The position numbers were made by a program, and so were the translations under genes. From positions 26,162,070 to 26,226,069 of the forward strand of contig NC_092671.1 in NCBI RefSeq assembly GCF_964355755.1: 64,000 bases of DNA, written 5' to 3'. The notes under the pieces were generated by a model. That model worked only from the letters and a program-made list of their open reading frames with translations. It ran no database searches and had not been told where the DNA came from. This document shows, piece by piece, positions 3,703 to 46,599 of this stretch; position 1 is the first letter of the stretch, and each line of letters starts with the position of its first letter. The stretch comes from Antedon mediterranea. Lineage: Eukaryota > Echinodermata > Crinoidea > Comatulida > Antedonidae.

Positions 3703-6700
3703 CTGCTGGTGCTGGTTCTTCTGCTGGTGCATTTGCTGCTGCTGGGTCTCCTAATAATAACAATAATAAATGTACACTGATACAAACTGAATAATACAGA
3801 CGTAAATAAACTATTATCTTATATTGTTGCATTTAATAGCTAAAATACTGTAGGCCTAGTTTCTAATTTCTAAATATTTTTCTCCCTATTTGGTATAGAA
3901 TAACATTCATTAGTCACTCTAATCAACGTCGTATCAATATAGAGTAATTTCAATCATCTGTGACTTTTATCCGGGTTATCGGAATTCCATTTCACTCGGC
4001 TGTCACTCTTGAAAATAGAATTTCATCTTTTACCGCATGGAATTATTGTACCATAACAGTCATTCATTATGTACATTATAATATGGTTTTATAATGTTAC
4101 TTACCATCTACAACTGTACTGTTTCCTGCTAAAAAGTAAAAAGTAACAGTATTTTAAATAACGCATAAGGATAATTTACAATGATGAATGAACGACCTGT
4201 TACAACGCAATAATGATTCATTAGAAACCATACGTCATGTTAATGTACAGTTATCCATGGAATATTCACATTTAATAGTATTCAATGTATGTTTTTTGTT
4301 TCGAGGAACTTTATCTTACATTAGGGTGCATTATAAGAAGCCTAAGTGTATGCTTGTCATCTGATTGGCTTGTTTCTTATTACGCGCCGTGCATTATTTT
4401 TCCCATAATATGAACAATTTTTTTCCCGAGATTTCACAAGGTGAATGCGAATTAAGGCTGCGTGAAAAGTGTATTAGGCCTACCTGCACTATTTGCAACT
4501 ACTGTACCATTTCCTGCTGAAATGTAAAAGTAATAGTCTTATAATGATGAATGAAAGAACTCTAAAACACTGTCTAATAGTGCCCATATATGGACATGAT
4601 GCTGTCATATTACTACCATATTTAGGCACATTACATACTTTTTGCCAAACTAGTTTGATAGTATAGACAGAGCTTATCAACACACAATAGTGGTTCATTA
4701 GAAACTGAAACATACGTCACGTTAATGCATTATTATTTTTTAAACAATGGCTAATTCGTCCATACGAGTACCCAAAATAAATTGTATCCAACTAAATTCA
4801 AACATGGCTAATTATTTGTTTTTAAAGTAATTTTAAAATGTTATTTGTTCTCACTTACCTGCTGCACCATCTCCAGCGTCTACAACTGTGCCATCGTCTG
4901 AAATTAAAACAAGTCTCCTTTTATCATATTATATGCATTCATAATGCAAGAAATGTAGGCATACCAGCAATTAAAGCAAGATGATTCAATTTAAATAAGA
5001 TAAGATAACAAACGGCTAAACAACGTGTTTGTTTTTGGGTGGATAAGAATGACTCAGATAAATAATCAGGAAGAACTAATAGAGACGGAGGGTTCGCTTT
5101 TAGGTAGAATACACTAATATTAGGCCCTTTTTGTATTGCAATTTATATTTCGTAACACAGTATTTACTATTTTTTATTCAATATTTATAGTATACATTCA
5201 AAAAGAAATACATAACATGGATGCAATATCAACATCAATTATAAATTATTAATTATAAACAAAAATAGTATTATATTTCATATCTCTTATCAACAACAAA
5301 CATTATCTTTTCACAACAATAACAAAAAAGGAGAACAATTCCTGTAGCATCAATTACAGATATTGATATAAAAATACCATTATTTTTATTAGCCTATAAT
5401 AAAATACATAATACTGTTTTGGAATAATATGCAGACAAATATCGTACCTTGGAAGTTGACTTGATTGGCTAAAAATAAAAATAACATTAAATTTAATTTT
5501 GTTAGCTCGTAAAATATGTATTTGAAAAAAAGGAAATGACATTTATCCTGATCAGTCCGTCATTCAATTGGTCAGTATGATATCATGGCGGTCAGTCAAT
5601 TAGTTTGGCAAATAATTCCGTAATAATGGGTTGTGAAATTGTTTCCGATGCTGAAACTTGTTATCAATTATACACTGATCTAGATGTGAAATGTTCTCAG
5701 TTTTGTAGAATCTAAAACACGGATTACATGTTAAATCTACAGTTTTTCCTTATATTGAAGCGAGTAGCGTACCGTCACAATTGGGAATCGACGACGAGGC
5801 AATGGAACGCATATTCGTTGTTAATATACAAGTTGGGAATTTAGGACGTAGATGTACCTACCAGCTGGTTCTACAAATACGCTAGTTTTCTGTAGTATGC
5901 AAAAGAGTGTGTAACTTGACTGAAAAACTGCGAACTTTGATCTACCGCCGCGGCGGTGGGAACTTTTACAACGAACATTCTAGAAACAAGTCCATCCCAA
6001 ACTCATGGCGATGTTATTCAGGCCCAAGCCAGAAAAACTTTTTATGGTTCGGGAGAACTTTTAGTCGCGTGAGTTTACCGTCTAAACATCTGACACACTC
6101 GAACTTTTAGAAGAATAAGTACAATTAAACGTATGGTCAGCCTATAAATTAACGGCTGCAACCGTAAATTTTCTATCTTGGCAAGGCGAGCTCAGAATTC
6201 TGTTGCAAGCTTGCCTTGGTGAAACTATATACAATGTGTCATGTGAATTACATTCAGAAACATCAAATCAATTTTCATTGAAACTATAATTTTCTTAGAT
6301 TCTTCAGAAAGAAAGAGAGACAGACTTACATAGTAAATTGACCTAATTGGAACACTGAATCCAAAATAAATGTTTAGTAAACGATTATTGATATTCCAAT
6401 TTGTTTTTCAACTCGAGATTAGTGTATAAAATTAAGCCAATGGACGAAACAAATTAACTTATGTTTCTTACTTACCATCACCTGCACTTTCCTCCACGGC
6501 TGTACCGTCGACTTCAGCTGTACCGTTGTTTGTTGCTGTACTATTGTCTGACAAATTAAAAACAATAGTGCGTTTATTCATAGACCTAAAGCTTGGTTCT
6601 TGCTTGATCGCAACGTAAGGACGTGATTAGAACGTAAGTAATTTCACCAATCACGACGCGATTGGTCAACCGAACTGTTGCTTCTGATTGGTCAAGTGTT

Positions 6701-9700
6701 CAAGTAAGAACCAAGCTTCAGGATCAGTTGTAATGAACCGTAAAAAGCCTGGTCCTCCAACATAAAACAATTTGTCTATCCCAAGTGTACACAAAATAGA
6801 ATGAATACTATTAGTAATTACATTGTGTTTGTTTTACTGTTTCTTACCTGCAGCAGGTACCTCTGCAGTATCTCCTAAAAATTAAAACAATATTGTGTTT
6901 TGCATCATAAAGGTTAAAAATGGTTAAATTGACAATATTTAGATTTATTCTTTAGATGGATAGGGATGACGAAATGGTTAAAAACGGCTAGCACTGCGAG
7001 TTAGTTCTTAGGTGGACATGGGTGTGACAAACTGGCTGGGACCGACTGGACTGCGGGTTGGTTCTTAGATGGACACAAATGACAACATTGTTAATTAGTC
7101 TAGATTGCCATTAATTCTTAGGTTGACATGAATGACGGCTACCACTACGAGTTAGTTTTAAGGTGGACATGAGTAACAAAATAGTCAAAACTACTAGAGA
7201 TTTCAGGTGGAAATAAAGGATTACAAACGGATAAATTGCGATTTAGTTCTTAGGTTGACATGGTTAAAAATGGTTAGATCGCAGTAAAAAACCAAATACA
7301 CTTTTTCAGACTGAAGTTTAAGATTGTTGAAGTGTGACCCACACTGACACTAGAACAAGTTAATGATGTAGTAGCTTACCTCCTTCAGCTGCAGCATTTT
7401 CTTCTGAGAATAAAAAAAAATATTTCTCGTATAGACATATGGATCAATCTTAACTTTATCAACAAGTAACTCTAACAACAAGTAAAATGGTTAAATGAAA
7501 TTTGAAGAAATTGAAATTTTAATTACCACGCAATAAGCCTATACAATGTGCCCATCCCATATATAGAATACATATACGATACGTTATGATACACCATGGC
7601 TTATATCAAACACCAATATTATTTTTTTATATAATAAAGGCGAACGGTAATATTACACAGTAGTCTAATTGAATCAACAATGCTATGCCTATACTATGAA
7701 ATACATAATAAATAATAATATTTGAGATATAGCATACCTTGCAAATTGACTTGATTTTCTACAAAAATAAATAGAAGAACAAAATTAGAATTAACTCAAA
7801 TATTAAATTTTATTTATTTCAGTTCAGCAAGCTTTTCTACGGTTCGGTACTGTTTGTACAAATCATGTTACATACATTTAGGCCTAGATATATTAAGAAC
7901 AACTAAACACACACACAATAGAATTATTTGCATTAGAAAGGCATTCTTATACTAAAATATATTAATATTAAAATCAATTCCCAAATTCGACAGCGATTTT
8001 GATGACCTACTACTATTACACAAATAGGTATATATTATAATTTGTTTGAATTTTACCTACCTAATGCAGCCATTAGTTTTGCTCGTTTTGCTGAAAATAA
8101 ATTAAATGTAAAATGTTCATTTTGATTTAACATATTAACAGGCTCATCATTAAAACAATAATATTATTTTACCATAGTTTCAGTTTAGTTCATCACAACC
8201 ATAATGCATCTTCACAATTGTAAATATCATTACAACAATAATAATATATAATCATATTCGTCATCATCTTTGCCACCTACATCATCGTCATCATTATTGT
8301 ATTGTTGTATCATCACGATTATTGCCCTACCTCATCACCACAGTCATCATTGTATCGTCACCATTATTGCCACCTATATCACAACTATCATTGAATCGTC
8401 ACAACCGTCATAATTATTGCCACCTATCCACCACCACCATCATTGTATCGTCAAAATTATCACCATTATTGCCCCTACATTGTCATCCCTACATTATCAC
8501 CGCAGTCATTATTGTATCGTCACAATCGTCACAATTATTATCACCTACATCGTTACCACAACCATCATCTTTGTATCATAACAATTTTCATCATTGTTGC
8601 CACCTATATCACCACCATCATTGTATCGTCACGATCATCACCATTATTACCATACATTGTCACCGCAGTCATCATTGAATCGTCACAATCGTCACCATTA
8701 TTGCCACTTATATCTTCACCACTTTAATTGTATCGTCATAATCGTCACAATTATTACCATTGTCACCACCATCATTATATCTTTACAATTGTCACCATTA
8801 TTGCCACCTATATCAACACCATCATCATAATTGTATCGTCACAATCATCACCATTATTGCCACATACATTGTCACCACCATAATTGTACCGTCACAATCG
8901 TCACCATTACAGTATTGTCAATTACATCGTCACCACCATAATTGTATCGTCACAATCGTCACCATTACAGTATTGTCAATTACATCGTCACCACCATAAT
9001 TGTATCATCACACTCGTCACCATTACAGTATTGTCTATTAAATCGTCACCGCCATCATTGTATTGTCACAATCGTCATTATCACAGTATTGTCAATTACA
9101 TCGTCACCACCATCATTGTATCGTCACAATCGTCACCATTACAGTATTGTCTATTAAATCGTCACCGCCATCATTGTATCGTCACAATCGTCACTATTAC
9201 AGTATTGTCAATTAAATCGTCACCGCCATCATTGTATTGTCACAATCGTCATTATTACAGTATTGTCAATTAAATCGTCACCGCCATCATTGTATCGTCA
9301 CAATCGTCACCATTACAGTATTGTCAATGAAATCGTCAACGCCATCATTGTATCGTCACAATCGTCACCATTACAGTATTGTCAATGAAATCGTCACCGC
9401 CATCATTGTATCGTCACAATCGTCACCATTACAGTATTGTCAATGAAATCGTCACCGCCTTCATTGTATCGTCACAATCGTCACCATTACAGTATTGTCA
9501 ATGAAATCGTCACCGCCATCATTGTATCGTCGCAATCGTCACCATTACAGTATTGTCAATTAAATCGTCACCGCCATCATTGTATCGTCGCAATCGTCAC
9601 TATTACAGTATTGTCAATTAAATCGTCACCGCCATCATTGTATATCACAATCGTCACCGTTACAGTATTGTAAATACACAGTCACTGCCATCATTGTATC

Positions 9701-10137
9701 GTCACAATCGTCACAATTACAGTATCGTCAATACATCGTCACCGCCATCATTGTATCGTCACAATCGTCACCATTACAGTATTGTCAGTACATCGTCACC
9801 GCCATCGTTATATCGTCACAATCGTCACCGTTACAGTATTGTCAATACATCGTCACCGCCATCGTTATATCGTCACAATCGTCACCGTTACAGTATTGTC
9901 AATACATCGTCACTGCCATCGTTATATCGTCCACTATATTGTCCACTCAAATGAAGGAAATTATTTAAGTTGTATATAATACGTATAATAGTTCTTTCCA
10001 TTATCAATATAAACTATCAACGCCTTTATCATTCTATCATTCTTATTACCACAATTGATCAAATTACCTGATGGTGAAGAATAGGTTATTGCTATGCATG
10101 CAAATGCAATAGCGAGTAAAAGTGCTGTCTGCTTCAT
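3703..10137 (-). CDS. Gene A: micro-exon gene for a secreted acidic protein, paralogue of gene B (3' end not found)
   Basis: Exons in transcript order: 10068-10137 (signal peptide), 8061-8090 (AKRAKLMAAL), 7738-7758 (ENQVNLQ), 7380-7403 (EENAAAEG), 6848-6874 (GDTAEVPAA), 6476-6547 (72 nt), perhaps 5862-5870 (EPA), 5448-5468 (ANQVNFQ), 4859-4897 (DDGTVVDAGDGAA), 4484-4516 (AGNGTVVANSA), 4105-4128 (AGNSTVVD) and 3703-3750 (GDPAAANAPAEEPAPA). All have AG/GT borders and phase 1-1. The 72-nt exon reads DNSTATNNGTAEVDGT then AVEESAGD. The product is a cysteine-free, acidic, Ala/Thr/Val/Asn-rich chain with four N-glycosylation sequons (NST twice, NGT twice). The N-Q-V-N-F/L-Q exons match the V-N-F-Q start of the gene B cassette, so A and B are probably paralogues. 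I could not identify the terminal exon. Function unknown. Confidence 0.7.
4105..4897 (-). repeat. Gene A: three duplicated exons with the (N/D)-(G/S)-T-V-V motif
   Basis: Exons 4859-4897, 4484-4516 and 4105-4128 all encode a small acidic block around G-T-V-V or S-T-V-V. Their introns are also alike: about 4105-4250 and 4484-4730 share GATGAATGAA, TTCATTAGAAAC and CATACGTCA in the same order. This is local exon-plus-intron duplication, the process that built the longer gene B array. Confidence 0.65.
5862..5870 (-). CDS. Possible 9-nt micro-exon of gene A
   Basis: The minus strand reads TTTGTAG, AACCAGCTG, GTAGGTA: acceptor, nine bases, donor. It would add E-P-A in phase 1-1, and E-P-A also occurs in the 3703-3750 exon. 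The pyrimidine tract is weak and chance occurrence is quite possible. Confidence 0.3.
6589..6719. mobile_element. Short palindromic MITE in a gene A intron
   Basis: Ends are inverted repeats beginning AAGCTTGGTTCTT; the right end reads AAGAACCAAGCTT. Inside are several ATTGGTCAA boxes. Related pieces lie at 835-930 (AAGCTTGGTTCGCACTAGGA) and 41720-41800 (GCGTGGTTCCGAC), so this is a dispersed family. Confidence 0.6.
6941..7280. repeat. Degenerate minisatellite in a gene A intron
   Basis: About six diverged units of 50-60 bp built around GTTAGTTCTTAGGTGGACAT, GACAAAATGGTTAAAA and GGCTAG. There is no splice pattern and no open frame. Confidence 0.6.
8250..9940. repeat. Minisatellite (58-bp unit) inside gene A intron
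   Basis: From about 8860 the array has a 58-bp period. Units contain CATTGTATCGTCACAATCGT, CACCATTACAGTATTGTCAA and a variable TTAAATCGTCACCGC block. Before 8860 the same ATCGTCAC/CACCATCATT words occur in less regular order. Open frames here (His/Ser/Ile-rich) are by-products of the repeat. It lies between the signal-peptide exon and the next micro-exon of gene A. Confidence 0.85.
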
Positions 10138-10155: not shown

Positions 10156-10159
10156 CTAA

Positions 10160-14226: not shown

Positions 14227-14282
14227 CTAATATTCGAATTCACCATCCATTTCCAGTGCCTCAAGAAGGAGCTCATCGGAGC
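14227..14282 (-). CDS. Gene B terminal coding exon
   Basis: The acceptor TTTAATTTAAG is followed by a phase-1 exon reading (G)SDELLLEALEMDGEFEY and TAG (14227-14229). It is acidic and lacks the Ala/Ser/Thr repeat character of the array. It closes the 996-nt frame exactly, which is good evidence for the exon chain as a whole. Confidence 0.75.
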
Positions 14283-17200
14283 CTTAAATTAAATAAAATA
14301 TCTAGTTTGTACAATAATGATAGCAACAATAATTCATTTTAAAATGACCAAAACATAAATGGAACGATGGATTGAATTTTGTTGACCAACTTCTCCGTAA
14401 CATTACGGTAGTTTATAATCTTGCCATAACTATCGACCAGCAGGAAATGCCATCGGAACTCCTAAGTTTATTTCTGAGGTTAAAGAAAATTAAACTAAGC
14501 TCAAAAAGAATATAAGACAGTCTATATGCTAATTCTATAAAATTAAGAAAATGTAAAATAAGATAATATTAAACATTTATTATGTGTTTAAAGTAAAAAA
14601 AAAACAGAACAAAATGTCAAAGATAATGGAAAATGTTATTTTGCTAGACGAGAGGCGATATCTCCATCAATGCATACATTGAAGTAGGTCAACCAAACTT
14701 AATCACTCGGCACATTAGTGATATGAAATAGTTAATTATTTAATTTTGCCTATCGAAAGCGGAGTGATATTTTCATACACTTGCTAAATTAAAAAATATG
14801 TCTGATAATACCTCCTGCTGCTGCAGTGGTGCTGGCCGCTGCTGTAAAATACAAGAAATATCAGAGTCCAATTATTACAATTAACATTATATGATTTACA
14901 ATTCACAACATCTTTTTATGCTTTAAATAAAATTCATTTGCTTAATTACAAATCATGTTTCATAATATAATTACCTGCTGCAGCAGTGGAGCTGCCCGCT
15001 GCTGTAAAATAAAAAAGAATCATGGTCCAATTATAACATTATTTGATATACAATTCATAGTATATTTGTTATGCTTTTGATACATTTGATTTGTTTTATT
15101 ACAAATCATGTTTCCTAATAATTATAATTACGATACCTGCTGTAACAGTGTCGCTTTCATCTTGGAAATTTACTTCTGAAATAGATAAAATATAAATTTG
15201 TAACAACAAATGATATTTTTTTTATATTATTATTTAAAAACAAAACGGGAATCTTGTATATTTTTACCAACAAATTATTGGCCTAACTAAAGGATATCTA
15301 TGTCCTTTTTTTTCTTTTTAGATAAAAATGTTCAATATAAGTATACAACTTCATTATTCATTTTAAATTGTTTTTATTTTTCAAATTTAATTGAAAATTG
15401 AACCGTGCGAATCCAATACGTAATCGTGTCGTCATTTACCTTTGCCGTCTCCTAAAATTAGAAAATAAAAATAATATTAATTTAAATATACAAGTACAGC
15501 TACATTCCCTAGATATATTCCAGACAATATTCCAGAGCGCTATGAGTTAACAAAAGTATCATGTCTTCAACATTCAATAAGTAAGTTTATAACACATTAT
15601 AAGGCCTAAAAAGACTACATATGCGTGATTACAAAATAAGTCTGAAAAATTACCTGCTGCCGCAGTGGTGCTAACCGCTGCTATAAAATACAAGAAATAT
15701 CATAGTCCAATTATTACAATTAACATTATTTGATTTACAATTCATAACATCTTTTTATGCTTTAAATAAAATTCATTTGCTTAATTACAAATCATGTTTC
15801 CATTTGCTTAATTACAAATCATGTTTCATAATAATAATTACCTGCTGCAGCAGTGGAGCTGCCCGCTGCTGTAAAATAAAAAAGAATCATGGTCCAATTA
15901 TAACATTATTTGATATACAATTCATAGCATATTTTGTATGCTTTTGATACATTTGATTTGTTTTATTACAAATCATGTTTCCTAATAATTATAATTACGA
16001 TACCTGCTGTAACAGTGTCGCTTTCACCTTGGAAATTTACTTCTGAAATAGATAAAATATAAATTTGTAACAACAAATGATAGATATTGTTTTTATATTA
16101 CAATTTTAAAAAACAAAACCGGAATCTTGTGTATTTTTACTAGAAATTCATTGGCCTTACTAAAGCATCTATGTAGTTATTTTTTTCTGTTTAGAAAAAA
16201 AAGTTTAATATAAGTAATACAAAATATACTAATACAACTTCATTATTCATTTTAAATTGGTTCTTTTTATAATTTAATTGAAAGTTAAACCGTGCGAATC
16301 CAATACGTAATCGTGTCTTCATTTACCTTTGCCGTCTCCTAAAATTAGAAAATAAAAATAATATTAATTTAAATATACAAGTACAGCTACATTCCGTACA
16401 GATATTCCAGACAATATTCCAGAGCGCTACGAGGTAACAAATATAAGATATCTTTATCATTCAATAAGTACGTTCAGTAAGTTTATAACACATTATAAGG
16501 CCTAAAAAAACTACATAGGCGTGATTACAAAATAAGTCTGAAAAATTACCTGCTGCCGCAGTGGTGCTAACCGCTGCTATAAAATACAAGAAATATCATA
16601 GTCCAATTATTACAATTAACATTATATGATTTACAATTCATAACATCTTTTTATGCTTTAAATAAAATTAATTTGCTTAATTACAAATCATGTTTCATAA
16701 TATAATTACCTGCTGCAGCAGTGGAGCTGCCCGCTGCTGTAAAATAAAAAAGAATCATGGTCCAATTATAACATTATTTGATATACAATTCATAGTATAT
16801 TTTGTATGCTTTTGATACATTTGATTTGTTTTATTACAAATCATGTTTCCTAATAATTATAATTACGATACCTGCTGTAACAGTGTCGCTTTCATCTTGG
16901 AAATTTACTTCTGAAATAGATAAAATATAAATTTGTAACAACAAATGATAGATATTGTTTTTATATTACAATTTTAAAAAACAAAACCGGAATCTTGTGT
17001 ATTTTTACTAGAAATTCATTGGCCTTACTAAAGCATCTATGTAGTTATTTTTTTCTGTTTAGAAAAAAAAGTTTAATATAAGTAATACAAAATATACTAA
17101 TACAACTTCATTATTCATTTTAAATTGGTTCTTTTTATAATTTAATTGAAAGTTAAACCGTGCGAATCCAATACGTAATCGTGTCTTCATTTACCTTTGC

Positions 17201-20200
17201 CGTCTCCTAAAATTAGAAAATAAAAATAATATTAATTTAAATATACAAGTACAGCTACATTCCGTACAGATATTCCAGACAATATTCCAGAGCGCTACGA
17301 GGTAACAAATATAAGATATCTTTATCATTCAATAAGTACGTTCAGTAAGTTTATAACACATTATAAGGCCTAAAAAAACTAGATATGCGTGATTACAAAA
17401 TAAGTCTGAAAAATTACCGGCTGCCGCAGTGCTGCTGACCGCTGCTGTAAAATACAAGAAATATCAGAGTCCAATTATTACAATAACATTATTTGATTTA
17501 CAATTCATATCATCTTTTTATGCTTTAAATAAAATTCATTTGCTTAAAGATGTATTGTCCCTTTGTCAAATTCCAAAAACAAACAAAAAAAGATTTCGAA
17601 AAAAAGTGGGTCATTTTGAAGTATCATAATAGTTATTAATTTTCACCAAAAATTAGTCGGAAAAAAATCATTTAACTGAAATACAGACGTTTTTTTGGTT
17701 CAAAAAATAACTTTGACTTCCAGTCAAAGTTTTCTATCAAAACATATCTCATAATGCAACGCGCTTATTTGGCTACTCTGTATGCATAATCATAAAACTT
17801 CTTCGCGATCTGTGTAAGAACACCTTCTCATCCGTGACGAGTTGTAAATAATCCTAATTAGCATCATGCATAATGTATACTCATGGTTTGAAATCTTTGT
17901 TTATTTTCGCTCGGGACAATTATCCAGATGAAATGTAATCAAATTAATTTAGCTGTTAATTACGTAAATTGTTGTTTTAGGCTCGAATTTACGATTTAAG
18001 ATGAATAACTTTAATATTACTTTGATATTTTATTTAAATTTAGAATATTTTGACCTTCATTTTTTTGTGTTTCAATGGACAATACATCTTTAATTACAAA
18101 TCATGTTTCATAATAATAATTACCTGCTGCAGCAGTGGAGCTGCCCGCTGCTGTAAAATAAAAAAGAATCATGGTCCAATTATAACATTATTTGATATAC
18201 AATTCATAGTATATTTTGTATGCTTTTGATACATTTGATTTGTTTTATTACAAATCATGTTTCCTAATAATTATAATTACGATACCTGCTGTAACAGTGT
18301 CGCTTTCATCTTGGAAATTTACTTCTGAAATAGATAAAATATAAATTTGTAACAACAAATGATAGATATTGTTTTTAGTCGCGTGGACGCGACTCTGTAG
18401 TTCACTATGTCGGTCGGTCGGTCTGTCGGTCTTTCTGTCGGTCCGGTATCACTATGCGTTTTATCGCTTTTCTGTACTTTTTGAACTGTTTTGATGTCAA
18501 CATGTGGGCATTTACGTGAAATTGTGCACTTCTATTGTGAATGACGTTAGAGTTGCGCAACGTGATTTACGCGCGATTTAACGATTTTCTCGTATTTAAC
18601 ATAGGTCAAAAACCAAATAACATTTTAAATTGAAACTTTGCAAAAGTTTAATTTATATCAGGCGCTAACTTTCTGTTGAAAAAAAAAAGGTGTTTTACAC
18701 AAAGTTACGCGTGCACGCGCATTTAAAATTTTAAAATTTGCAAAATTAATTTTTAATCAACTTTCTACGCGTTTCTTGTCATCTTGAGCATGTCAAAAAT
18801 TCCCATACGCGCGCAAATGTTTACGCGCGCGGTGCGCACGTAGCATTAAATACATACTTTTTTCGCGTGATTTATGTTTTTGCAGCCTTTTCTAATAATT
18901 TTACCAACTTTTAAACAATTTCGACTTAAAATTACGTCATACGAGCACGTCGAATTGGATAATTTGCGCACGTTTTCGATGAAAAAATTAAAAAATTCGT
19001 CGAAATTATGCCTTTTTAGTCGCGTGGACGAGACTCTATAGTTCACTATGTCGATCGGTCTGTCTGTCGGTCTGTCGGTCTGTCTGTAGGTCCGGTATCA
19101 TTATGCATTGTAGCACGCGACTTAATGGCTGTTGGCCTTGTTATATTACAATTTTAAAAAACAAAATCGGAATCTTGTGTTTTTTTGCCAGCAATTCATT
19201 AGCCTTACTAAGGCAACTATGTAGTTATTTTTTTGTTTAGAAAAAAAAAGTTTAATATAAGTAATACAAAATAAACTAATACAACTTCATTATTCATTTT
19301 AAATTGGGTTTTTTTTTCAAATTTAATTGAAAGAACCGTGCGAATCCAATACGTAATCGTGTCGTCATTTACCTTTGCCGTCTCCTAAAATTAGAAAATA
19401 AAAATAATATTAATTTAAATATACAAGTACAGCTACATTCCGTACAGATATTCCAGACAATATTCCAGAGCGCTACGAGGTAACAAAAGTATCATGTCTT
19501 TAGCATTCAATAAGTAAGTTTATAACACATTATAAGGCCTAAAAAAACTACATATGCGTAATTACAAAATAGGTCTGAAAAATTACCTGCTGCCGCAGTG
19601 GTGCTGACCGCTGCTGTAAAATACAAGAAATATCATAGTCCAATTATTACAATTAACATTATTTAATTTACAATTCACAACATCTTTTTATGCTTTAAAT
19701 AAAATTCATTTGCTTAATTACAAATCATGTTTCATAATAATAATTACCTGCTGCAGCAGTGGAGCTGCCCGCTGCTGTAAAATAAAAAAGAATCATGGTC
19801 CAATTATAACATTATTTGATATACAATTCATAGTATATTTGTTATGCTTTTGATACATTTGATTTGTTTTATTACAAATCATGTTTCCTAATAATTATAA
19901 TTACGATACCTTCTGTAACAGTGTCGCTTTCATCTTGGAAATTTACTTCTGAAATAGATAAAATATAAATTTGTAACAACAAATGATAGATATTGTTTTT
20001 ATATTACAATTTTAAAAAACAAAACCGTAATCTTGTGTATTTTTACTAGCAATTCATTAGCCTTACTAAAGCATCTATGTAGTTATTTTTTTTCTGTTTA
20101 GAAAAGAAAAGTTTAATATAAGTAATACAAAATATACTAATACAACTTCATTATCCATTTTAAATTGGTTTTTTTTTTCAAATTTAATTGAAAGTTGAAT

Positions 20201-23200
20201 CGTGCGAATCCAATACGTAATTGTGTCGTCATTTACCTTTGCCGTCTCCTAAAATTAGAAAATAAAAATAATATTAATTTAAATATACAAGTACAGCTAC
20301 ATTCACTAGAGATATTCCAGACAATATTCCAGAGCGCTACGAGGTAACAAAAGTATCATGGCTTTAGCATTCAATAAGTAAGTTTATAACACATTATAAG
20401 GCCTAAAAAAACTACATATGCGTAATTACAAAATAGGTCTGAAAAATTACCTGCTGCCGCAGTGGTGCTGGCCGCTGCTGTAAAATACAAGAAATATCAT
20501 AGTCCAATTATTACAATTAACATTATATGATTTACAATTCACAACATCTTTTTATGCTTTAAATAAAATTCATTTGCTTAATTACAAATCATGTTTCATA
20601 ATATAATTACCTGCTGCAGCAGTGGAGCTGCCCGCTGCTGTAAAATAAAAAAGAATCATGGTCCAATTATAACATTATTTGATATACAATTCATAGTATA
20701 TTTGTTATGCTTTTGATACATTTGATTTGTTTTATTACAAATCATGTTTCCTAATAATTATAATTACGATACCTGCTGTAACAGTGTCGCTTTCATCTTG
20801 GAAATTTACTTCTGAAATAGATAAAATATAAATTTGTAACAACAAATGATAGATATTGTTTTTAGTCGCGTGGACGCGACTCTGTAGTTCACTATGTCGG
20901 TCGGTCGGTCTGTCGGTCTGTCTGTCGGTCCGGTATCACTATGCGTTTTATCGCTTTTCTGTACTTTTTGAACTGTTTTGATGTCAACATGTGGGCATTT
21001 ACGTGAAATTGTGCACTTCTATTGTGAATGACGTTAGAGTTGCGCAACGTGATTTACGCGCGATTTAACGATTTTCTCGTATTTAACATAGGTCAAAAAC
21101 CAAATAACATTTTAAATTGAAACTTTGCAAAAGTTTAATTTATATCAGGCGCTAACTTTCTGTTGAAAAAAAAAAGGTGTTACACAAAGTTACGCGTGCA
21201 CGCGCATTTAAAATTTTAAAATTTGCAAAATTAATTTTTAATCAACTTTCTACGCGTTTCTTGTCATCTTGAGCATGTCAAAAATTCCCATACGCGCGCA
21301 AATGTTTACGCGCGCGGTGCGCACGTAGCATTAAATACATACTTTTTTCGCGTGATTTATGTTTTTGCAGCCTTTTCTAATAATTTTACCAACTTTTAAA
21401 CAATTTCGACTTAAAATTACGTCATACGAGCACGTCGAATTGGATAATTTGCGCACGTTTTCGATGAAAAAGTTAAAAAATTCGTCGAAATTATGCCTTT
21501 TTAGTCGCGTGGACGCGACTCTATAGTTCACTATGTCGGTCGGTCTGTCTGTCGGTCTGTCGGTCTGTCTGTAGGTCCGGTATCATTATGCATTGTAGCA
21601 CGCGACTTAATGGCTGTTGGCCTTGTTATATTACAATTTTAAAAAACAAAATCGGAATCTTGTGTTTTTTTGCCAGCAATTCATTAGCCTTACTAAAGCA
21701 TCTATGTAGTTATTTTTTTGTTTAGAAAAAAAAAAGTTTAATATAAGTAATACAAAATAAACTAATACAACTTCATTATTCATTTTAAATTGTTTTTTTT
21801 TCAAATTTAATTGAAAGTTGAACCGTGCGAATCCAATACGTAATCGTGTCGTCATTTACCTTTGCCGTCTCCTAAAATTAGAAAATAAAAATAATATTAA
21901 TTTAAATATACAAGTACAGCTAAATTCCCTAGATATATTCCAGACAATATTCCAGAGCGCTATGAGGTAACAAAAGTATCATGCCTTCAACATTCAATAA
22001 GTAAGTTTATAACACATTATAAGGCCTACAAAAACTAGATATGCGTAATAACAAAATAAGTTTGAAAAATTACCTGCTGCCGCAGTGGTGCTAACCGCTG
22101 CTGTAAAATACAAGAAATATCATAGTCCAATTATTACAATTAACATTATTTGATTTACAATTCACAACATCTTTTTATGCTTTAAATAAAATTCATTTGC
22201 TTAATTACAAATCATGTTTCATAATAATAATTACCTGCTGCAGCAGTGGAGCTGCCCGCTGCTGTAAAATAAAAAAGAATCATGGTCCAATTATAACATT
22301 ATTTGATATACAATTCATAGCATATTTTGTATGCTTTTGATACATATGATTTGTTTTATTACAAATCATGTTTCCTAATAATTATAATTACGATACCTGC
22401 TGTAACAGTGTCGCTTTCATCTTGGAAATTTACTTCTGAAATAGATAAAATATAAATTTGTAACAACAAATGATAGATATTGTTTTTATATTACAATTTT
22501 AAAAAACAAAACCGGAATCTTGTGTATTTTTAATAGAAATTCATTGGCCTTACTAAAGCATCTATGTAGTTATTTTTTTCTATTTAGAAAAAAAAGTTTA
22601 ATATAAGTAATACAAAATATACTAATACAACTTCATTATTCATTTTAAATTGGTTCTTTTTATAATTTAATTGAAAGTTAAACCGTGCGAATCCAATACG
22701 TAATCGTGTCTTCATTTACCTTTGCCGTCTCCTAAAATTAGAAAATAAAAATAATATTAATTTAAATATACAAGTACAGCTACATTCCGTACAGATATTC
22801 CAGACAATATTCCAGAGCGCTACGAGGTAACAAATATAAGATATCTTTATCATTCAATAAGTACGTTCAGTAAGTTTATAACACATTATAAGGCCTAAAA
22901 AACCTAGATATGCGTGATTACAAAATAAGTCTGAAAAATTACCTGCTGCCGCAGTGGTGCTGACCGCTGCTGTAAAATACAAGAAATATCAGAGTCCAAT
23001 TATTACAATAACATTATTTGATTTACAATTCATCATCTTTTTATGCTTTAAATAAAATTCATTTGCTTAAAGATGTATTGTCCCTTTGTCAAATTCCAAA
23101 AACAAACAAAAAAAGATTTCGAAAAAAAGTGGGTCATTTTGAAGTATCATAATAGTTATTAATTTTCACCAAAAATTAGTCGGAAAAAAATCATTTAACT

Positions 23201-26200
23201 GAAATACAGACGTTTTTTTTTTGTTCTAAAAATAACTTTGACTTCCAGTCAAAGTTTTCTATCAAAACATATCTCATAATGCAACGCGCTTATTTGGCTA
23301 CTCTGTATGCATAATCATAAAACTTCTTCGCGATCTGTGTAAGAACACCTTCTCATCCGTGACGAGTTGTAAATAATCCTAATTAGCATCATGCATAATG
23401 TATACTCATGGTTTGAAATCTTTGTTTACTTTCGCTCGGGACAATTATCCAGATGAAATGTAATCAAATTAATTTAGCTGTTAATTACGTAAATTGTTGT
23501 TTTAGGCTCGAATTTACGACTTAAGATGAATAACTTTAATATTACTTTGATATTTTATTTAAATTTAGAATATTTTGACCTTCATTTTTTTGTGTTTCAA
23601 TGGACAATACATCTTTAATTACAAATCATGTTTCATAATAATAATTACCTGCTGCAGCAGTGGAGCTGCCCGCTGCTGTAAAATAAAAAAGAATCATGGT
23701 CCAATTATAACATTATTTGATATACAATTCATAGTATATTTGTTATGCTTTTGATACATTTGATTTGTTTTATTACAAATCAGGTTTCCTAATAATTATA
23801 ATTACGATACCTGCTGTAACAGTGTCGCTTTCATCTTGGAAATTTACTTCTGAAATAGATAAAATATAAATTTGTAACAACAAATGATAGATATTGTTTT
23901 TATATTACAATTTTAATAGATAGATATTTATTTATATTACAATTTAACAAAAATCTCTTAATCATCGGAACTTATTTCCATTGTTCAGTTTTTATATTAC
24001 AGTTTTAAGAAACACATATGTAAAGTATCGATATTGACATAACCCCCACTTATTTAAGCGGTAAAGCAGAACGAGCATTGTGAAAACTGTGATGCAGAAC
24101 TTTTTCATAATGTTGTTCGTAAGATAGGAATGGGATAAATTTTAAACTTGGAGCTACTACTAATAAAACCTTCCTACTACATATTGCAGTCATTTTGTAT
24201 GGATGCGTTCATTAGAAAATTGTGTATGACAAACAATCTCTCTTACAATATAAATGATATAATCGTACATACCGAGTTTGTACCTTGCCTCTGTATTATA
24301 CTCAGCAGCTAAAAAATAAATGAACAACCGATTCTCAGTTCTGTGTATATATTTGTATAATTATAATATTCTCCGTCATCTTAGGCAAATTCCGTAATAC
24401 CGCATCAAATGTGTATCATATATGGTGCCCGTATTATGAAAGGTTAAATTAATTAGGTTAGGGTATATGATACATGTGTTACATATGAAACATATGTGAT
24501 CCTGTATCACGGAAGTTGCCTATACTTGTATTGATCCAATTAGTTAGTTACTGTTGCTTAGGCCTATACCAAAATAGGTGTTTATTTCTGTATTTTATAG
24601 GCATGGAATAATTTGCATATCACCTGAAATATTCTCATGTAATGAAATATTTTTCCAAAGGAAAATATTCTGAGTGAACAAACTGATTTTTTTAGGAAAT
24701 GAATTGATAGACATTATCTATTAATACATCTTCTAGTCTAGATCATACAGTATATCGATTTTCTTAAAGCAATATTCCAGAGAACAAAAACAAAAATAAT
24801 GATATTCTCAGCCCGCGATTATGTTCGTACATAAATTGGGGACTCATTGTGTGAAAGCATAGATTAATGAATAGATGGATACGTGTCAACGGTGTGTTGA
24901 ACCGTGAAATGTACAAAAAGTCACATTTGTGCAAACAACCACATTTATGCAAACATGGCACCCTAATTATGTACAAATCTGTAAAAATGTATAATCCACT
25001 AATGAGCAAACATCACGCCGTTAAATGTAAAAAACGATCAGTATTGACGTTAAATGTGCAAATGAAATTCTATAAAGGGTTTTTCAATCAAAATCGTTTA
25101 TTAACAAGGCAGTCGCGTGCTCAAGTTAGTGTTTACCGACCGACCGACCAACCGACCGACATAGTAAGCTGTAGAAAAATGATAACCTAATTCTAAACAG
25201 TCACGGGTTTTTCTAACAATGTTGTTAAGATATAGCCACTTACATATTTAATTATACCACAGGCTGAAATAATCTGTTTTGGAAAAAAAAAATACAATCA
25301 TGTTCGGGAATGCAAGACTGACACGTGATCGCTGCTTGCTGGAGATGATAATCCATACCGTTGGAATTTTTTTTTAAATCAGAATTAACATCAAAACGTA
25401 CTCAAGTAGAAATCGTATGTCTGATTGGTCTATTGACATGTTTGCGTCGAGGATTAATTAACAACAAGATATTGCTGAACAATTATTTTAAATTTCATCC
25501 AAATCGGACTACAAAAGCTCATTTTCTTACGACCGTAATTTTAAGTAGTTAAAAAATAATATGCAATTTTCATATTTGAATTATCTTATTGTTCCGAAAC
25601 CTCCGAAAATTAAATTATAGAATATTAAATCATGCATTCGATCATGAAAATGATGTTCGAAACAAATTATATTCCGGCACAGAGAATGAAATGACAAAAT
25701 GTTATTCCAAAAGACTTGAATGGTATCCCGTGAGAACAGAATAGTGTTCCGAGAGAACGAAAATCTATTCCGAAAGAATGGAATGGTATTCCGTGAGAAC
25801 AGAATAGTGTTAAGAGAGAATGGTATTCCGAAATGTTATTCTGTTAGAACAGAATCGAGTTACTAGAGAACGAACAGATAATCCGAACGAACAGAATAGT
25901 TTTCCGAGAGAACGAAGTGATATTTCGAAAGAATTGAATGGTATTCTGTGAGAACAGAAAAAATGTTACTAAAGAAAGGAGTGATATTACGAAAGAACGG
26001 AATGGAATTGGAAGTCCATGAGAACAGAATAGAGTTACGAGAGAGCAAAGTATTATTCCGAACGAACGGAAAGGTATTCCGTGAGAACTGAAATTGTTAT
26101 ATGAGAGAACGAAATGATATTCCCAGGAAAAAGAACGGAATATTATTCCTATTGCATGAGAACGAATGTGTTACGAGAGTGCGAAGTATTATTCCGAAAG

Positions 26201-27431
26201 AACGGAAAGGTATTCCGTGAGAACTGAATATTGTTATGCGAGAGAACGAAATGATATTCCCAGGGAAAAGAACGGAATATTATTCCTATTCCATGAGAAC
26301 GGATAGTGTTACGAGAGAGCAAAGTATTATTCCGAAAGAACGGAAAGGTATTCCGTGAAAACTGAATATTGTTTTACGAGAGAACGAAATGATATTCCCG
26401 AGAAAAAGAACGTTATGTTATTCCAAAAGACTGGAATGGTATTCCGTGAGAACAGAATAGTGTTAAGAGAGAACGGAATGATATTCCGAAATGTTATTCT
26501 GTTAGAACAGAATCGAGTTACTAGAGAACGAAGAGATAATCCGAACGAACAGAATAGTTTTCCGAGAGAACGAAGTGATATTTCGAAAGAATTGAATGGT
26601 ATTCTGTGAGAACAGAAACAATGTTACTAAAGAAAGGAGTGATATTACGAAAGAACGGAATGGAATTGGTAGTCCATGAGAACAGAATAGTGTTACAAGA
26701 GAGCAAAGTATTATTCCGAACGAACGGAAAGGTATTCCGTAAGAACTGAATATTGTTATACGAGAGAACGAAATGATATTTCCAAAAAAAAAAAGAATGG
26801 AATATTATTCCTATTCCATGAGAACGGATAGTGTTACGAGAGTGCGAAGTGATATTCCGAAAGAACGGAATAGTATTCCGTGAAAAATGAATATTGTTTT
26901 ACAAGAGAACGAAATGATATTCCCGAGAAAAGGAACGGAATGGTATTCCGTGAGAACAGAATAATGTTACGAGAGGACGAATTGAAATTCCAACAGAACC
27001 GAATGGCATTCGTGAGAACAGAATAGTGCACCGAGAGAACGAAAAGAAACTCCGAAAGAACGGAAGGGTTTTCTGTGAGAACAGAATAATTATTATAGTG
27101 TTCCGAGAGAACCAACCAAATTAATTCCAAAAGAACTGAATGATATTTCTAGGGAACGGAAGATATTTGGATCAATTAATATTGAAAACATAATGTTTCT
27201 ATTGACAAATACAATGATACGGAATAATGATAGATGAAATCTATATTTTAGATGAAAATGTCTTCATAGAGATATAAAAGAAACGTTTGAGCTTCAATAA
27301 AAAGATGACGTGTATTCTTAAATATAGCTTTAGCTTAAATATTGAACTTATTACTTGCCTTTCATAAACGGTTTGGCGAATACCATTGACATAAATGTCG
27401 CCGTAATCAGGATTACCTTGAAACAAATCAT
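14227..27431 (-). CDS. Gene B: micro-exon gene for a secreted repetitive acidic Ala/Ser/Thr-rich protein
   Basis: Spliced gene with 34 coding exons. Order in the transcript: signal exon 27359-27431 (73 nt), exon 24273-24308 (36 nt, AAEYNTEARYKL), then eight cassettes of exons reading EVNFQDESDTVTA (39 nt), AAGSSTAAA (27 nt), AAVSTTAAA (27 nt) and GDGK (12 nt; absent from the last cassette), then terminal exon 14227-14282. Every acceptor is a pyrimidine/T-rich AG and every donor is GT except one GC. Every junction splits a glycine, alanine, glutamate or similar codon after its first base (phase 1-1). Exon lengths sum to 996 nt, an open frame of 331 codons plus TAG. The N-terminus is a classic signal peptide (VILITATFMSMVFA, likely cut before KP). 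The mature chain lacks cysteine, is strongly acidic (about -4 per 35 residues) and is rich in Ser/Thr suited to O-glycosylation, so it is probably disordered and extracellular. I recognise no family; function is unknown. Expression is not shown, and exon joining is inferred from splice sites and frame. Confidence 0.8.
14812..15175 (-). repeat. Gene B cassette 8 (three micro-exons, truncated unit)
   Basis: Exons: 15137-15175, 14975-15001 and 14812-14841. The third exon is 30 nt (AAASTTAAAG) because one extra codon precedes the donor, and there is no 12-nt GDGK exon. It leads to the terminal exon in phase 1. Confidence 0.8.
15440..16042 (-). repeat. Gene B cassette 7 (four micro-exons)
   Basis: Exons: 16004-16042 (variant EVNFQGESDTVTA), 15842-15868, 15654-15680 and 15440-15451. 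The intron between the second and third exons has a short internal duplication of about 25 bp (15767-15820, repeating CATTTGCTTAATTACAAATC). Confidence 0.85.
16327..16910 (-). repeat. Gene B cassette 6 (four micro-exons)
   Basis: Exons: 16872-16910, 16710-16736, 16550-16576 and 16327-16338. This is an uninterrupted unit; its 868-bp start-to-start distance to cassette 7 defines the basic genomic period of the array. Confidence 0.85.
17195..18324 (-). repeat. Gene B cassette 5 (four micro-exons, with a TTAA MITE)
   Basis: Exons: 18286-18324, 18124-18150, 17418-17444 (variant AAVSSTAAA, donor CCG then GTAATT) and 17195-17206. A 542-bp MITE (17548-18089) occupies the same intron and site as in cassette 1. 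Confidence 0.85.
17548..18089. mobile_element. TTAA-target MITE (piggyBac-like), copy in cassette 5
   Basis: Inverted ends AGATGTATTGTCC and GGACAATACATCT are flanked by TTAA on both sides (17544-17547 and 18090-18093). Sister cassettes without the insert show a single TTAA at the same intron site, so the boundaries are exact. TTAA targets are typical of piggyBac-type transposases; no transposase is encoded. Confidence 0.8.
18377..19142 (+). mobile_element. GGTCGG-rich repeat element, long form (copy 1)
   Basis: Begins AGTCGCGTGGACGCGACT, continues with GGTCGGTCTGTC tracts, has a 540-bp middle, then a second 125-bp unit ending TAGCACGCGACTTAATGGCT and GTTGGCCTTGTT. Comparison with uninterrupted cassettes gives exact boundaries. 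The inner 66-residue ORF on the minus strand is shared with copy 2 only because the DNA was duplicated. The classification is not known to me. Confidence 0.7.
19373..19948 (-). repeat. Gene B cassette 4 (four micro-exons)
   Basis: Exons: 19910-19948, 19748-19774, 19587-19613 and 19373-19384. The last codon of the 39-nt exon differs (EVNFQDESDTVTE). The following intron carries the second copy of the GGTCGG-rich repeat (18377-19142). Confidence 0.85.
20237..20811 (-). repeat. Gene B cassette 3 (four micro-exons)
   Basis: Exons: 20773-20811, 20611-20637, 20451-20477 and 20237-20248. The third exon has a GTC-to-GCC change giving AAASTTAAA instead of AAVSTTAAA. Introns are nearly identical to those of the other cassettes. 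Confidence 0.85.
20864..21627 (+). mobile_element. GGTCGG-rich repeat element, long form (copy 2)
   Basis: Nearly identical to 18377-19142 and in the same intron position of the preceding cassette boundary, so copied with the host DNA. Confidence 0.7.
21860..22435 (-). repeat. Gene B cassette 2 (four micro-exons)
   Basis: Exons: 22397-22435 (39 nt), 22235-22261 (27 nt), 22074-22100 (27 nt, AAVSTTAAA) and 21860-21871 (12 nt, GDGK). The intron after this cassette contains the 764-bp GGTCGG-rich repeat at 20864-21627. Confidence 0.85.
22720..23849 (-). repeat. Gene B cassette 1 (four micro-exons, with a TTAA MITE)
   Basis: Exons: 23811-23849 (EVNFQDESDTVTA), 23649-23675 (AAGSSTAAA), 22943-22969 (AAVSTTAAA) and 22720-22731 (GDGK). 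A 544-bp MITE (23071-23614) sits in the intron between the second and third exons, the same intron that carries a copy in cassette 5. Start-to-start distance to cassette 2 is 1414 bp, identical to that between cassettes 5 and 6. Confidence 0.85.
23071..23614. mobile_element. TTAA-target MITE (piggyBac-like), copy in cassette 1
   Basis: Nearly identical to the copy at 17548-18089 and at the same site within the cassette (TTAA at 23067-23070 and 23615-23618). The two copies arose by duplication of the host cassette after one insertion, not by two insertions. Confidence 0.8.
24273..24308 (-). CDS. Gene B exon 3: 36-nt micro-exon
   Basis: The acceptor TTATTTTTTAG and donor GTATGTACG flank a 36-nt exon encoding AAEYNTEARYKL in phase 1-1. 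It is the only non-repeated internal exon of the gene and supplies the sole tyrosines and arginine between the signal peptide and the repeat array. It joins in frame to the signal exon upstream and to the first 39-nt cassette exon downstream. Confidence 0.75.
24382..24522. mobile_element. Short MITE in gene B intron
   Basis: Terminal inverted repeats: left TAGGCAAATTCCGTAATAC, right (reverse complement) TAGGCAACTTCCGTGATAC, 141 bp apart. It lies 74 bp upstream of exon 24273-24308 in transcript direction. Confidence 0.6.
25107..25172 (-). mobile_element. GGTCGG-rich repeat element, fragment in reverse orientation
   Basis: Reads AAGGCAGTCGCGTGCTCAAG and then ACCGACCGACC tracts, the reverse complement of the family's right half. 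It lies in gene B's first coding intron. Confidence 0.6.
25670..27165. repeat. Complex minisatellite in gene B intron
   Basis: Arrays of short words GGAATGGTATTCCGTGAGAA, CAGAATAGTGTTACGAGAGA and ACGAAATGATATTCC. Higher-order copying is visible: about 120-bp units at 26040-26400, and a larger block with 25830-26060 repeated at 26490-26720. The open frames are by-products. Confidence 0.8.
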
Positions 27432-27436
27432 GGTTT
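27359..27436 (-). CDS. Gene B exon 2: start codon and signal peptide
   Basis: The acceptor is a long T-tract ending in TATAG, followed by five untranslated bases and ATG (27429-27431). Twenty-four codons read MICFKVILITATFMSMVFAK then PFMK: a short basic n-region, a hydrophobic core and a V-F-A cleavage site. The exon ends in phase 1 at AAAG followed by GCAAGT, a good consensus for the minority GC-AG intron class. Gene A has the same layout (ATG just inside the second exon, phase-1 exit), which supports this as the real start. Confidence 0.75.
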
Positions 27437-28032
27437 CTATAAAAAAAAAATATATATATATATATGTAACACACCTTGGTATATTCTTGTCATTTTATTG
27501 GAGGGTTGTGGGTCATATGATATTATATAAATGCACTATTTTCCTTTTTTTAAATTTTTACTAGTTCTGTACTTTTCTGTTATTTTTTCTTTTATTTTTA
27601 TCAAACACATTTCCAACGGTATTAATTTTCTTTTATGAATATTGGACAATACAAGTTTTTGAATTTTTAATAGAGTTTATTCAATGTATTATGGTTCAAT
27701 TTAACTATTTATCTTTTTTTTTCTTAATATAAGTTAAATATAACATCTGCTTATCTTTCCTATTCAATGTTTAATTTAATTGTTGATATATAATATATGT
27801 TGGTGGACAATACATTACACTAATTGATGTTATATTTGCTTATAGAAACATTTGATTTAATACTCTTGATTTTAGATGAAAATGTGTATGTTTTTAGCTA
27901 TAATTGTACTGTATGATAAATACCATCTTTTACCGTAAGTATATCGTGAAAATGCTTACTGAAATTAGAATATGCAAAAAAAAAAAAAGAAGAAAAATTT
28001 TCAAAAAGTATAATTAAAATTAGGTTACTTAC

Positions 28033-28072
28033 CACTCTAGTAATAATTGCTAGCCGTCTACTTTGAAATCCG
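28033..28072 (-). other. Gene B exon 1: non-coding leader exon (predicted)
   Basis: A strong donor (AGAGTG then GTAAGTAAC) is seen on the minus strand about 600 nt upstream of the signal-peptide exon. The only other landmark is a TATA-like box about 25-30 nt before the guessed start. The 3' edge at 28033 is seen; the 5' edge near 28072 is inferred from TATA spacing. The end of this exon (ATTATTAC...GTAAGTAA) resembles the candidate leader exon of gene A at 11344. Confidence 0.5.
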
Positions 28073-28629: not shown

Positions 28630-29670
28630 TCGGGTGCATCAATATGCGTTAACAGTATGTCCAGGGACGGGTGCAGCAATACGCCTTAACGGTATGTCCA
28701 GGGACGGGTGCAGCAATACGCCTTAACAGTATGTCCAGGGACGGGTGCAGCAATACGCCTTAACAGTATGTCCAGGGACGGGTGTAGTATACGCTTCAAC
28801 AGAATGTCCACGGACGGATGCAGCAATACGCTTTAACATTATATCCAGGGACGGGTTCAGAAATACGCTTTAACAGTATGTCCAGCAGGGATGGGTGCAG
28901 CAATACGCTTTAACATTATGTCCAGGGACGGGTGCAGCAATACGCTTTAACAGTATGTCCAGAGACGGGTGCAGCAATACGCTTCAACAGTATGTCCAGG
29001 GGATGGGTGCAGCAATACGCCTTAACAGTATGTCCAGGGACGGGTGTAGTATACGCTTCAACAATATGTCCAGGGATGGATGCAGCAATACGCTTTAACA
29101 GTATGTCAAGGGATGGATGCAGCAATACGCTTTAACAGTATGTCCAGGGATGGGTGCAGCAACACGCTTTAACAGTATGTCCAGCAGGGACGGGTGTAGT
29201 ATACGCTTCAACAGTATTTCCAGGGATGGATGCAGCAATACGCTTTAACATTATGTCCAGGGACGGGTGCAGCAATACGCTTTAACAGTATGTCCAGCAG
29301 GGACGGATGTAGTATACGCTTCAACAATATGTCCAGGGACGGGTGCAGCAATACGCTTTAACATTATGTCCAGGGACGGGTGCAGCAATACGCTTTAACA
29401 TTATGTCCAGGGACGGGTGCAGCAATACGCTTTAACAGTATGTTTAGGGACGGGTGCAGCAATACGCTTTAACAGTATGTCCAGCAGGGACGGGTGTAGT
29501 ATACGCTTGAACGGGTGCAGCAATACGCTTCAACAGTATGTTCAGGAGGAACGGGTGCAGCAATACGTGTCAACAGTATGTCCAGCAGGGATGGGTGCAG
29601 CAATACGCTTCAACAGTATGTCCAGGGTCGGGTGCAGCCATACGCTTTAACAGTATGTCCAGGAACCAAT
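28630..29670. repeat. 37-bp minisatellite, about 28 copies
   Basis: Unit: AGGGACGGGTGCAGCAATAC, GCTTTAACAG, TATGTCC, with occasional 3-4 bp insertions (CAGCAGGG). Because 37 is not a multiple of 3 and the unit has no stop in any forward frame, it generates several overlapping open frames. These are not supported as genes. Confidence 0.85.
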
Positions 29671-29804: not shown

Positions 29805-30014
29805 ACTGAAATTTAATTAATTAATTTGAAACGATAAAGATGAGGAAATCTGTGAGAATGAGAAAATGTCACCCCAACCGAGACTCGAACTCGGACCGCC
29901 TGCTTGATATGCAGATGTCCTAACCATTAGACCACTGGGGCTTTCATGGTATTGTTCAAACTCGATTGGATAGCGCCTCTCTAACATTCTCGGCGTGGTA
30001 CGGCGGAACATCAC
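29805..30014 (-). repeat. tRNA-containing repeat element, copy 1
   Basis: The same flanks and tRNA-like core occur at 55033-55256 and 56705-56926. Common left flank: GTACCACGCCGAGAATGTTA; common right flank: CAGATTTCCTCATCTTTATC. The element therefore moved or was copied as a unit, as in a SINE. Confidence 0.65.
29871..29941 (-). tRNA. tRNA-like gene with AUC anticodon (Asp-type reading), in repeat copy 1
   Basis: Folds as a full cloverleaf: acceptor GCCCCAG/TTGGGGT with a final G-T pair, D arm with GTCT/GGAC, anticodon stem TCTGC/GCAGG, loop ATATCAA and T arm CCGAG-TTCGAGT-CTCGG. The loop gives anticodon ATC, which would read GAU (Asp), whereas normal eukaryotic tRNA-Asp has GTC. Presence in a repeated element points to a tRNA-derived SINE or pseudogene. 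Confidence 0.55.
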
Positions 30015-42990: not shown

Positions 42991-43024
42991 TAAACGATCG
43001 TTTAATAGTACTTTTTGAAACATT

Positions 43025-46593: not shown

Positions 46594-46599
46594 ATCTGA

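Follow-up and report, generated by a model that had tools for sequence, protein, structure and literature searches.

A predicted micro-exon gene with a tandem exon cassette and a diverged micro-exon neighbour

Does a protein repeat spread over a tandem array of very short exons represent a gene, or can repetitive DNA mimic one? The question is raised by a locus in the window, which is the whole stretch of 64,000 nucleotides analysed here. A first-pass annotation had described one gene with 34 coding exons, 996 nt and 331 residues, and the same model (331 codons and a stop) was obtained when it was rebuilt from the raw sequence of the minus strand, with coding exons from 27431 down to 14227. 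This gene (gene 1) is however not alone, as a second gene of like design (gene 2) adjoins it. The reading preferred here, to which we assign a probability of roughly 0.7, is that these are two neighbouring, related minus-strand micro-exon genes, belonging to a secreted repeat-protein family that grew by exon and cassette duplication and in which exons may be skipped without effect on the frame. Gene 1 stands as a gene prediction, and as such the earlier observation is partly confirmed.

Gene 1 is made up of a leader exon, exon 2, 31 array exons and a terminal exon (Table 1). The mean exon length is 29.3 nt, and each of the 32 internal exons is phase 1-1 and a multiple of three in length, in agreement with the mean of about 29 nt and the uniform phase given previously. 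The frame also closes as had been claimed, with a hydrophobic leader exon at one end and a stop at the other; the coding part of exon 1 is 73 nt and reads as the leader MICFKVILITATFMSMVFA followed by KPFMK. Acceptors are AG throughout and donors are GT throughout except at exon 1, where the donor AAAG/GCAAGT gives a GC-AG intron with the GC donor in a strong context. The acceptor of the terminal exon is weak (score 1.4), and the nearest AATAAA or ATTAAA lies approximately 118 nt past the stop. Within the span of 14227 to 28072 given earlier, coding starts at 27431; if the sequence at 28072 belongs to an exon, this must be a 5'UTR exon, which is itself a prediction. In both genes a T-rich stretch ending in AG is found a few bases before the start codon (10137-10160, minus, in gene 2), which suggests a 5'UTR intron in both.

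Table 1. Positions of predicted exons, cassettes and insert-bearing introns in the window
Feature	Position	Strand	Details
Gene 1, predicted 5'UTR exon	28033..28072	-	TATAAA at 28102; donor GTG/GTAAGT; start uncertain
Gene 1, start-codon exon	27359..27436	-	ATG 27431; acceptor before 27436; GC donor
Gene 1, exon 2	24273..24308	-	36 nt, AAEYNTEARYKL
Gene 1, cassette 1	22720..23849	-	exons 23849-23811, 23675-23649, 22969-22943, 22731-22720
Gene 1, cassette 2	21860..22435	-	exons 22435-22397, 22261-22235, 22100-22074, 21871-21860
Gene 1, cassette 3	20237..20811	-	exons 20811-20773, 20637-20611, 20477-20451, 20248-20237
Gene 1, cassette 4	19373..19948	-	exons 19948-19910, 19774-19748, 19613-19587, 19384-19373
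Gene 1, cassette 5	17195..18324	-	exons 18324-18286, 18150-18124, 17444-17418, 17206-17195
Gene 1, cassette 6	16327..16910	-	exons 16910-16872, 16736-16710, 16576-16550, 16338-16327
Gene 1, cassette 7	15440..16042	-	exons 16042-16004, 15868-15842, 15680-15654, 15451-15440
Gene 1, cassette 8, incomplete	14812..15175	-	exons 15175-15137, 15001-14975, 14841-14812
Gene 1, terminal coding exon	14227..14282	-	GSDELLLEALEMDGEFEY and stop
B-C intron of cassette 1, with insert a	22970..23648	.	99.4% identical to cassette 5 intron
B-C intron of cassette 5, with insert a	17445..18123	.	
D-A intron after cassette 2, with insert b	20812..21859	.	99.4% identical to intron after cassette 4
D-A intron after cassette 4, with insert b	18325..19372	.	
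Gene 2, leader exon	10068..10137	-	70 coding nt, MKQTALLLAIAFACIAITYSSPS
Gene 2, exon AKRAKLMAAL	8061..8090	-	
Gene 2, exon ENQVNLQ	7738..7758	-	
Gene 2, exon EENAAAEG	7380..7403	-	
Gene 2, exon GDTAEVPAA	6848..6874	-	
Gene 2, exon DNSTATNNGTAEVDGTAVEESAGD	6476..6547	-	72 nt
Gene 2, exon ANQVNFQ	5448..5468	-	
Gene 2, exon DDGTVVDAGDGAA	4859..4897	-	
Gene 2, exon AGNGTVVANSA	4484..4516	-	
Gene 2, exon AGNSTVVD	4105..4128	-	
Gene 2, exon GDPAAANAPAEEPAPA	3703..3750	-	last exon of the model, terminal exon to follow

The array consists of exons A(39 nt)-B(27)-C(27)-D(12) repeated seven times and then A-B-C(30), giving 7 x 4 + 3 = 31 exons. A full cassette holds 39 + 27 + 27 + 12 = 105 coding bases, the figure reported before, and encodes the 35-residue repeat EVNFQDESDTVTA-AAGSSTAAA-AAVSTTAAA-GDGK. 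In other respects the earlier description of the cassettes was idealised. Eight cassettes of four exons had been described, and seven have this form, but the eighth has three exons, being without the 12-nt exon D and having an exon C of 30 nt; in this last unit the sequence diverges from the repeat where exon C ends, and phase is preserved through a donor located three bases beyond that point. Similarly, the unit length of 860-868 bp applies to three of the seven complete units (863, 868 and 867 bp), but the other four measure 1414 bp (two units) or 1624 bp (two units) and are enlarged by inserts. Along the plus strand the spacing is 867, 868, 1414, 1624, 863, 1624 and 1414 bp. The 1414-bp units carry an insert of about 545 bp (a) in the B-C intron, which by eye has TTAA on both sides and inverted ends, and the 1624-bp units carry one of about 764 bp (b) in the D-A intron. 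Because the two introns that share an insert are 99.4% identical, for a as for b, the units were copied, or converted, after insertion, and more than one event is required to account for the pairing (cassette 1 with 5 for insert a, cassette 2 with 4 for insert b). Exons B and C together with their flanks follow a period of 153-154 bp with 80-81% matches, and look like an older duplication inside the unit.

Exons in the array vary at seven of 105 sites, with four changes replacing a residue and three silent. Introns vary at 3.7% of columns (A-B and B-C), 11.4% (C-D) and 12.8% (D-A), as counted after the insert-bearing introns were dropped (two of eight B-C and two of seven D-A introns). As a test for selection the comparison was not informative, since variation is similar in both; exon divergence is not clearly slower than that of the introns within the array, and purifying selection is not supported there. 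As the eight units are near-copies they count as one observation, and the array alone is weak evidence.

Gene 2 is located on the same (minus) strand, 4 kb downstream of gene 1, from 10137 to approximately 3703. It comprises 11 coding exons, the first a leader exon and the other ten phase-1 exons with lengths of 30, 21, 24, 27, 72, 21, 39, 33, 24 and 48 nt, and each junction between them is in phase 1. None of 21 phase-1 candidates for its terminal exon was convincing, and the one with the best-scoring acceptor (9.2, at 2929) was rejected as it would add only V and a stop. A candidate 9-nt phase-1 exon, EPA, is present outside the model at 5862-5870 (scores 3.9 and 9.7), between the 72-nt exon and ANQVNFQ. 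Comparison of gene 2 with itself, leaving aside the minisatellite rows (queries at 8200-9990), paired 7773-7687 with 5483-5392 (72%) and 4544-4498 with 4157-4110 (81%), and these are older internal exon duplications of gene 2's own. Gene 2 is not a recent array, and homogenisation therefore cannot have produced its exons.

The gene 2 region (6.6 kb, one strand) was compared with 300 dinucleotide shuffles at fixed thresholds, using approximate splice matrices and thresholds chosen once the region had already been inspected by eye. Non-overlapping AG..GT micro-pairs number 13 in this region, where the shuffles average 2.09 and reach at most 6, and phase-1 symmetric open micro-exon candidates number 12, where the shuffles (again 300) average 0.34 and reach at most 3. 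Some of the 13 picks differ from the final exons: 8373-8331 and 5889-5862 have no place among them, 3776-3703 has a different start but overlaps the 48-nt exon, 10091-10068 falls within the leader exon, and another two begin 3 nt inside listed exons. The rest of the window (111.2 kb over both strands) yielded 25 micro-pairs; without the phase rule, lengths divisible by three were found for 10 of the 13 picks in the gene 2 region versus 7 of the 25 elsewhere. Small/polar-rich phase-1 micro-exon candidates in the whole window, nested variants included, numbered 68 on the minus strand versus one on the plus strand, and 65 of these 69 fall in the two genes. First scans at other thresholds gave 35 minus versus 5 plus, and 83 minus versus 19 plus, where the listing of the latter scan covers the minus strand outside 14500 to 23700. 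Exons are richer in GC than introns in both genes (54.5% versus 28.3% in gene 1, and 46.7% versus 33.0% in gene 2). When both strands of the window were scanned for motifs and micro-exons, no cluster that would indicate a third related gene was detected outside the two genes. One stray VNLQ (60079, minus) and one stray STAAA (5941, plus) were seen.

Both genes share a design in which a leader exon ending in phase 1 is followed in turn by a short exon containing basic residues, a VNFQ/VNLQ exon and small Ala-rich phase-1 exons. Local alignment of a one-cassette version of gene 1 with gene 2 scored 57 (p = 0.006; 2000 shuffles, highest 65), pairing EVNFQDESDTVT----AAAGSSTAAA--AAVSTTAAAGD of gene 1 with QVNFQDDGTVVDAGDGAAAGNGTVVANSAAGNSTVVDGD of gene 2. 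When the alignment was bounded by exons, ANQVNFQ and DDGTVVDAGDGAA of gene 2 being fused as the counterpart of exon A, it scored 29, a value reached by two of 5000 within-exon shuffles and by none of 5000 across-exon shuffles. The collinear order of exons ranked only third of 24. In the alignment the C/D border coincides, and at A/B and B/C the borders of the two genes are no more than one to three columns apart, beside gaps. Searching the plus strand of both gene regions with blastn (word size 7) gave no match at E 0.01, which places the split between the genes as old relative to the array; the proposed relatedness rests on the peptides and the design. As gene 2 would be a diverged gene of gene 1 design, a chance pattern is unlikely.

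The predicted products are acidic proteins rich in Ala, Ser, Thr and Gly, and both are presumably secreted, as the first exons of both genes read like leaders (as judged by reading). With the leader cut assumed after residue 19, the mature gene 1 protein has 312 residues, of which 30% are Ala and 24% Ser or Thr, with one proline and no cysteine; the incomplete gene 2 protein is 25% Ala. The charge at pH 7 is about -37 for gene 1 and about -18 for the incomplete gene 2. The computed pI of 4.05 for both should be read as approximately 4 or lower, this being presumably the floor value of the routine. Four N-glycosylation sequons are present in gene 2 and none in gene 1. Pfam returned BPL_C for gene 1 at 27.1 bits (cut-off 21), but no stretch passes alone (the best covers 15 residues) and the match is read as weak repeats summed over the whole protein; Cu_amine_oxidN1 (22.4 bits, cut-off 24.2) and DUF5006 (5.6 bits, cut-off 34.1) fell below cut-off, as did, by far, the only match for gene 2, MCLC (6.1 bits, E 5.5, cut-off 25). 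A search of the PDB with gene 1 gave no match up to E 1. The repeats, rather than a folded domain, may do the work of the product, which could perhaps be a component of extracellular mucus, matrix or adhesive, a role that we put forward only tentatively.

The nearest architecture proposed earlier, that of the schistosome micro-exon genes (MEGs), holds up as a comparison and is strengthened by the diverged neighbour; the earlier interpretation is supported in this and in the gene model, but not in its idealised cassettes. PMC7653826 defines MEGs by at least seven exons, at least half of them below 70 nt and divisible by three, with a run of at least four such exons. Predicted exons of this kind number 32 of 34 in gene 1, in a run of 32, and 9 of 11 in gene 2, in a run of five. 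Most of the coding region of MEGs is in very small symmetrical exons (PMC4350168), and the same is seen here for 867 of 996 nt in gene 1 and 267 of 409 nt in gene 2. Schistosome and tapeworm MEGs have many short symmetric exons divisible by three, a leader peptide, paralogue clusters from tandem duplication and in-frame skipping (PMC4350168, PMC7653826, PMC10526429). The present genes resemble them in their exons and in lying side by side as putative paralogues, and leader-like first exons and frame-neutral exon joins would agree with the other two features. They differ in that gene 1 carries eight copies of a cassette of four exons together with the introns, the eighth copy lacking exon D, and in that phase 1-1 is kept by every internal exon; MEG exons are mostly of 15 bp, with the longest introns in the centre, according to PMC10526429. 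By this analogy, gene 1 and gene 2 probably work like MEGs. As of 2015 MEGs were apparently restricted to platyhelminths (PMC4350168). In the open-licence literature no paper on micro-exon genes in echinoderms was found, which is weak evidence of absence.

Other systems share parts of this design. Tropoelastin (ELN) has numerous small phase 1-1 exons that are alternatively spliced, some of them Ala-rich, and gene 1 has about as many small exons in the same phase; it is however strongly acidic, without VPG-type hydrophobic domains (one proline in 312 mature residues) or KAAK cross-link exons, and neither the VPG-rich nor the KA-rich domains of elastin are found in its sequence and composition. 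Silk-type repeats are tandem Ala runs with Gly/Ser/Thr spacers, homogenised by recombination within long exons. Gene 1 has similar runs and spacers, but its 35-residue repeat is split over four exons and includes an acidic VNFQDESD segment. The sea urchin Sp185/333 genes, compared here by description only, are likewise clustered paralogues for secreted echinoderm repeat proteins with shuffled elements, but they have two exons with the repeats inside one, as against the micro-exons here.

Whether the array could be a large satellite, made of non-coding repeats that resemble splice sites and codons only by chance, must be considered, as its units are homogenised, its exons are not visibly more constrained than its introns and the window is rich in other tandem repeats. 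This is very improbable given that the frame is closed by unique flanking exons, which supply a leader and a stop, and that gene 2, a non-array gene 4 kb off, has its 12 phase-1 candidates (against 0.34) and related peptides. The missing constraint within the array, together with the GC donor after exon 1 and the weak terminal acceptor, could also mean that gene 1 is real but that its cassettes are partly or wholly skipped, or that it is a decaying pseudogene with gene 2 as the working member. Against this, none of the 34 exons has a stop or frame shift, all 31 cassette exons keep AG and GT, and the donor three bases on in the last unit retains phase, and we regard this account as improbable, if less so than a satellite.

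A peptide precursor cut at the single lysine (GDGK/E) into many 35-residue peptides, for example signalling or antimicrobial ones, would match the one lysine per full cassette, the leader exon and the repeated unit. Peptide-hormone polyproteins have dibasic or GKR sites between repeats, but each full repeat of gene 1 contains just one K, no dibasic site lies between the repeats, and those of gene 2 contain neither lysine nor arginine; as the repeats are moreover Ala-rich and acidic, a precursor is quite improbable. It is also conceivable, though unlikely, that the window comes from a flatworm and that both genes are ordinary members of the known class, as both show the exon structure described for it, and clustered MEG paralogues are known in a tapeworm (PMC7653826). 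The palindrome TAGGCCTA occurs 30 times in the whole window, versus 0.5 expected from base composition. We take the link of such an excess with a phylum as a hint only, but, with the look of the mobile-element ORFs, it may point to another marine invertebrate.

If the two are related micro-exon genes as preferred here, gene 1 would have grown by tandem duplication of a genomic unit of about 860 bp with exons A-B-C-D, each extra unit adding one 35-residue repeat, and cassette number could change further by recombination between units. Every pre-terminal coding exon ends in G and the next begins with the last two bases of the codon, so forward joins create no junction stops, as was found for all 561 joins in gene 1 and all 55 among the 11 gene 2 exons. 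Since the internal exons are also phase 1-1, any internal exon or cassette could be skipped, gained or lost in frame. All 16 B and C exons start with CAG directly after a CAG or TAG acceptor, and these tandem acceptors could vary the product by one residue. When transcribed, one locus may in this way supply, by exon skipping and tandem acceptors, a pool of slightly differing secreted repeat proteins. The locus would be a clear case of a protein repeat that expanded in the form of a genomic cassette, introns included, next to a related gene that has no such array. At somewhat less than even odds, the family had an origin of its own in an echinoderm-like animal, independent of that in flatworms, with cassette copying giving a tunable combinatorial secreted pool and the introns absorbing breakpoints and mobile-element insertions while the coding cassettes stay intact. 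Should the locus be from a non-platyhelminth phylum, the MEG design would have evolved more than once and would not be tied to parasitism.

Several other features were observed in the window. In both genes a large minisatellite is found within the first coding intron (8507-9931 in gene 2 and 25718-27090 in gene 1), with 58-bp units in gene 2 and periods of 21 to 138 bp in gene 1, and the two look unrelated. Immediately upstream of gene 1 there is a tandem array with a 37-bp unit in about 28 copies (28631-29663). Pfam searches of eight ORFs in the window gave nothing above cut-off, with one weak match to AAR2_1st (14.7 bits, cut-off 23.6). By eye, the ORFs at 30985-31296 (minus), 42695-43066 (minus) and 37434-37901 (plus) are like fragments of retroelements or mobile genes, with no Pfam match above cut-off, and a Cys-rich ORF at 46375-46701 (minus), with no Pfam match at E 0.1, has a leader-like stretch (DACSCPSNCKSRPPADCSC). 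Four tRNA matches were obtained (29870-29941, 55104-55173, 56773-56844 and 57162-57233), three for Asp (anticodon ATC) and one for Thr by ARAGORN, and these are possibly tRNA-derived repeats.
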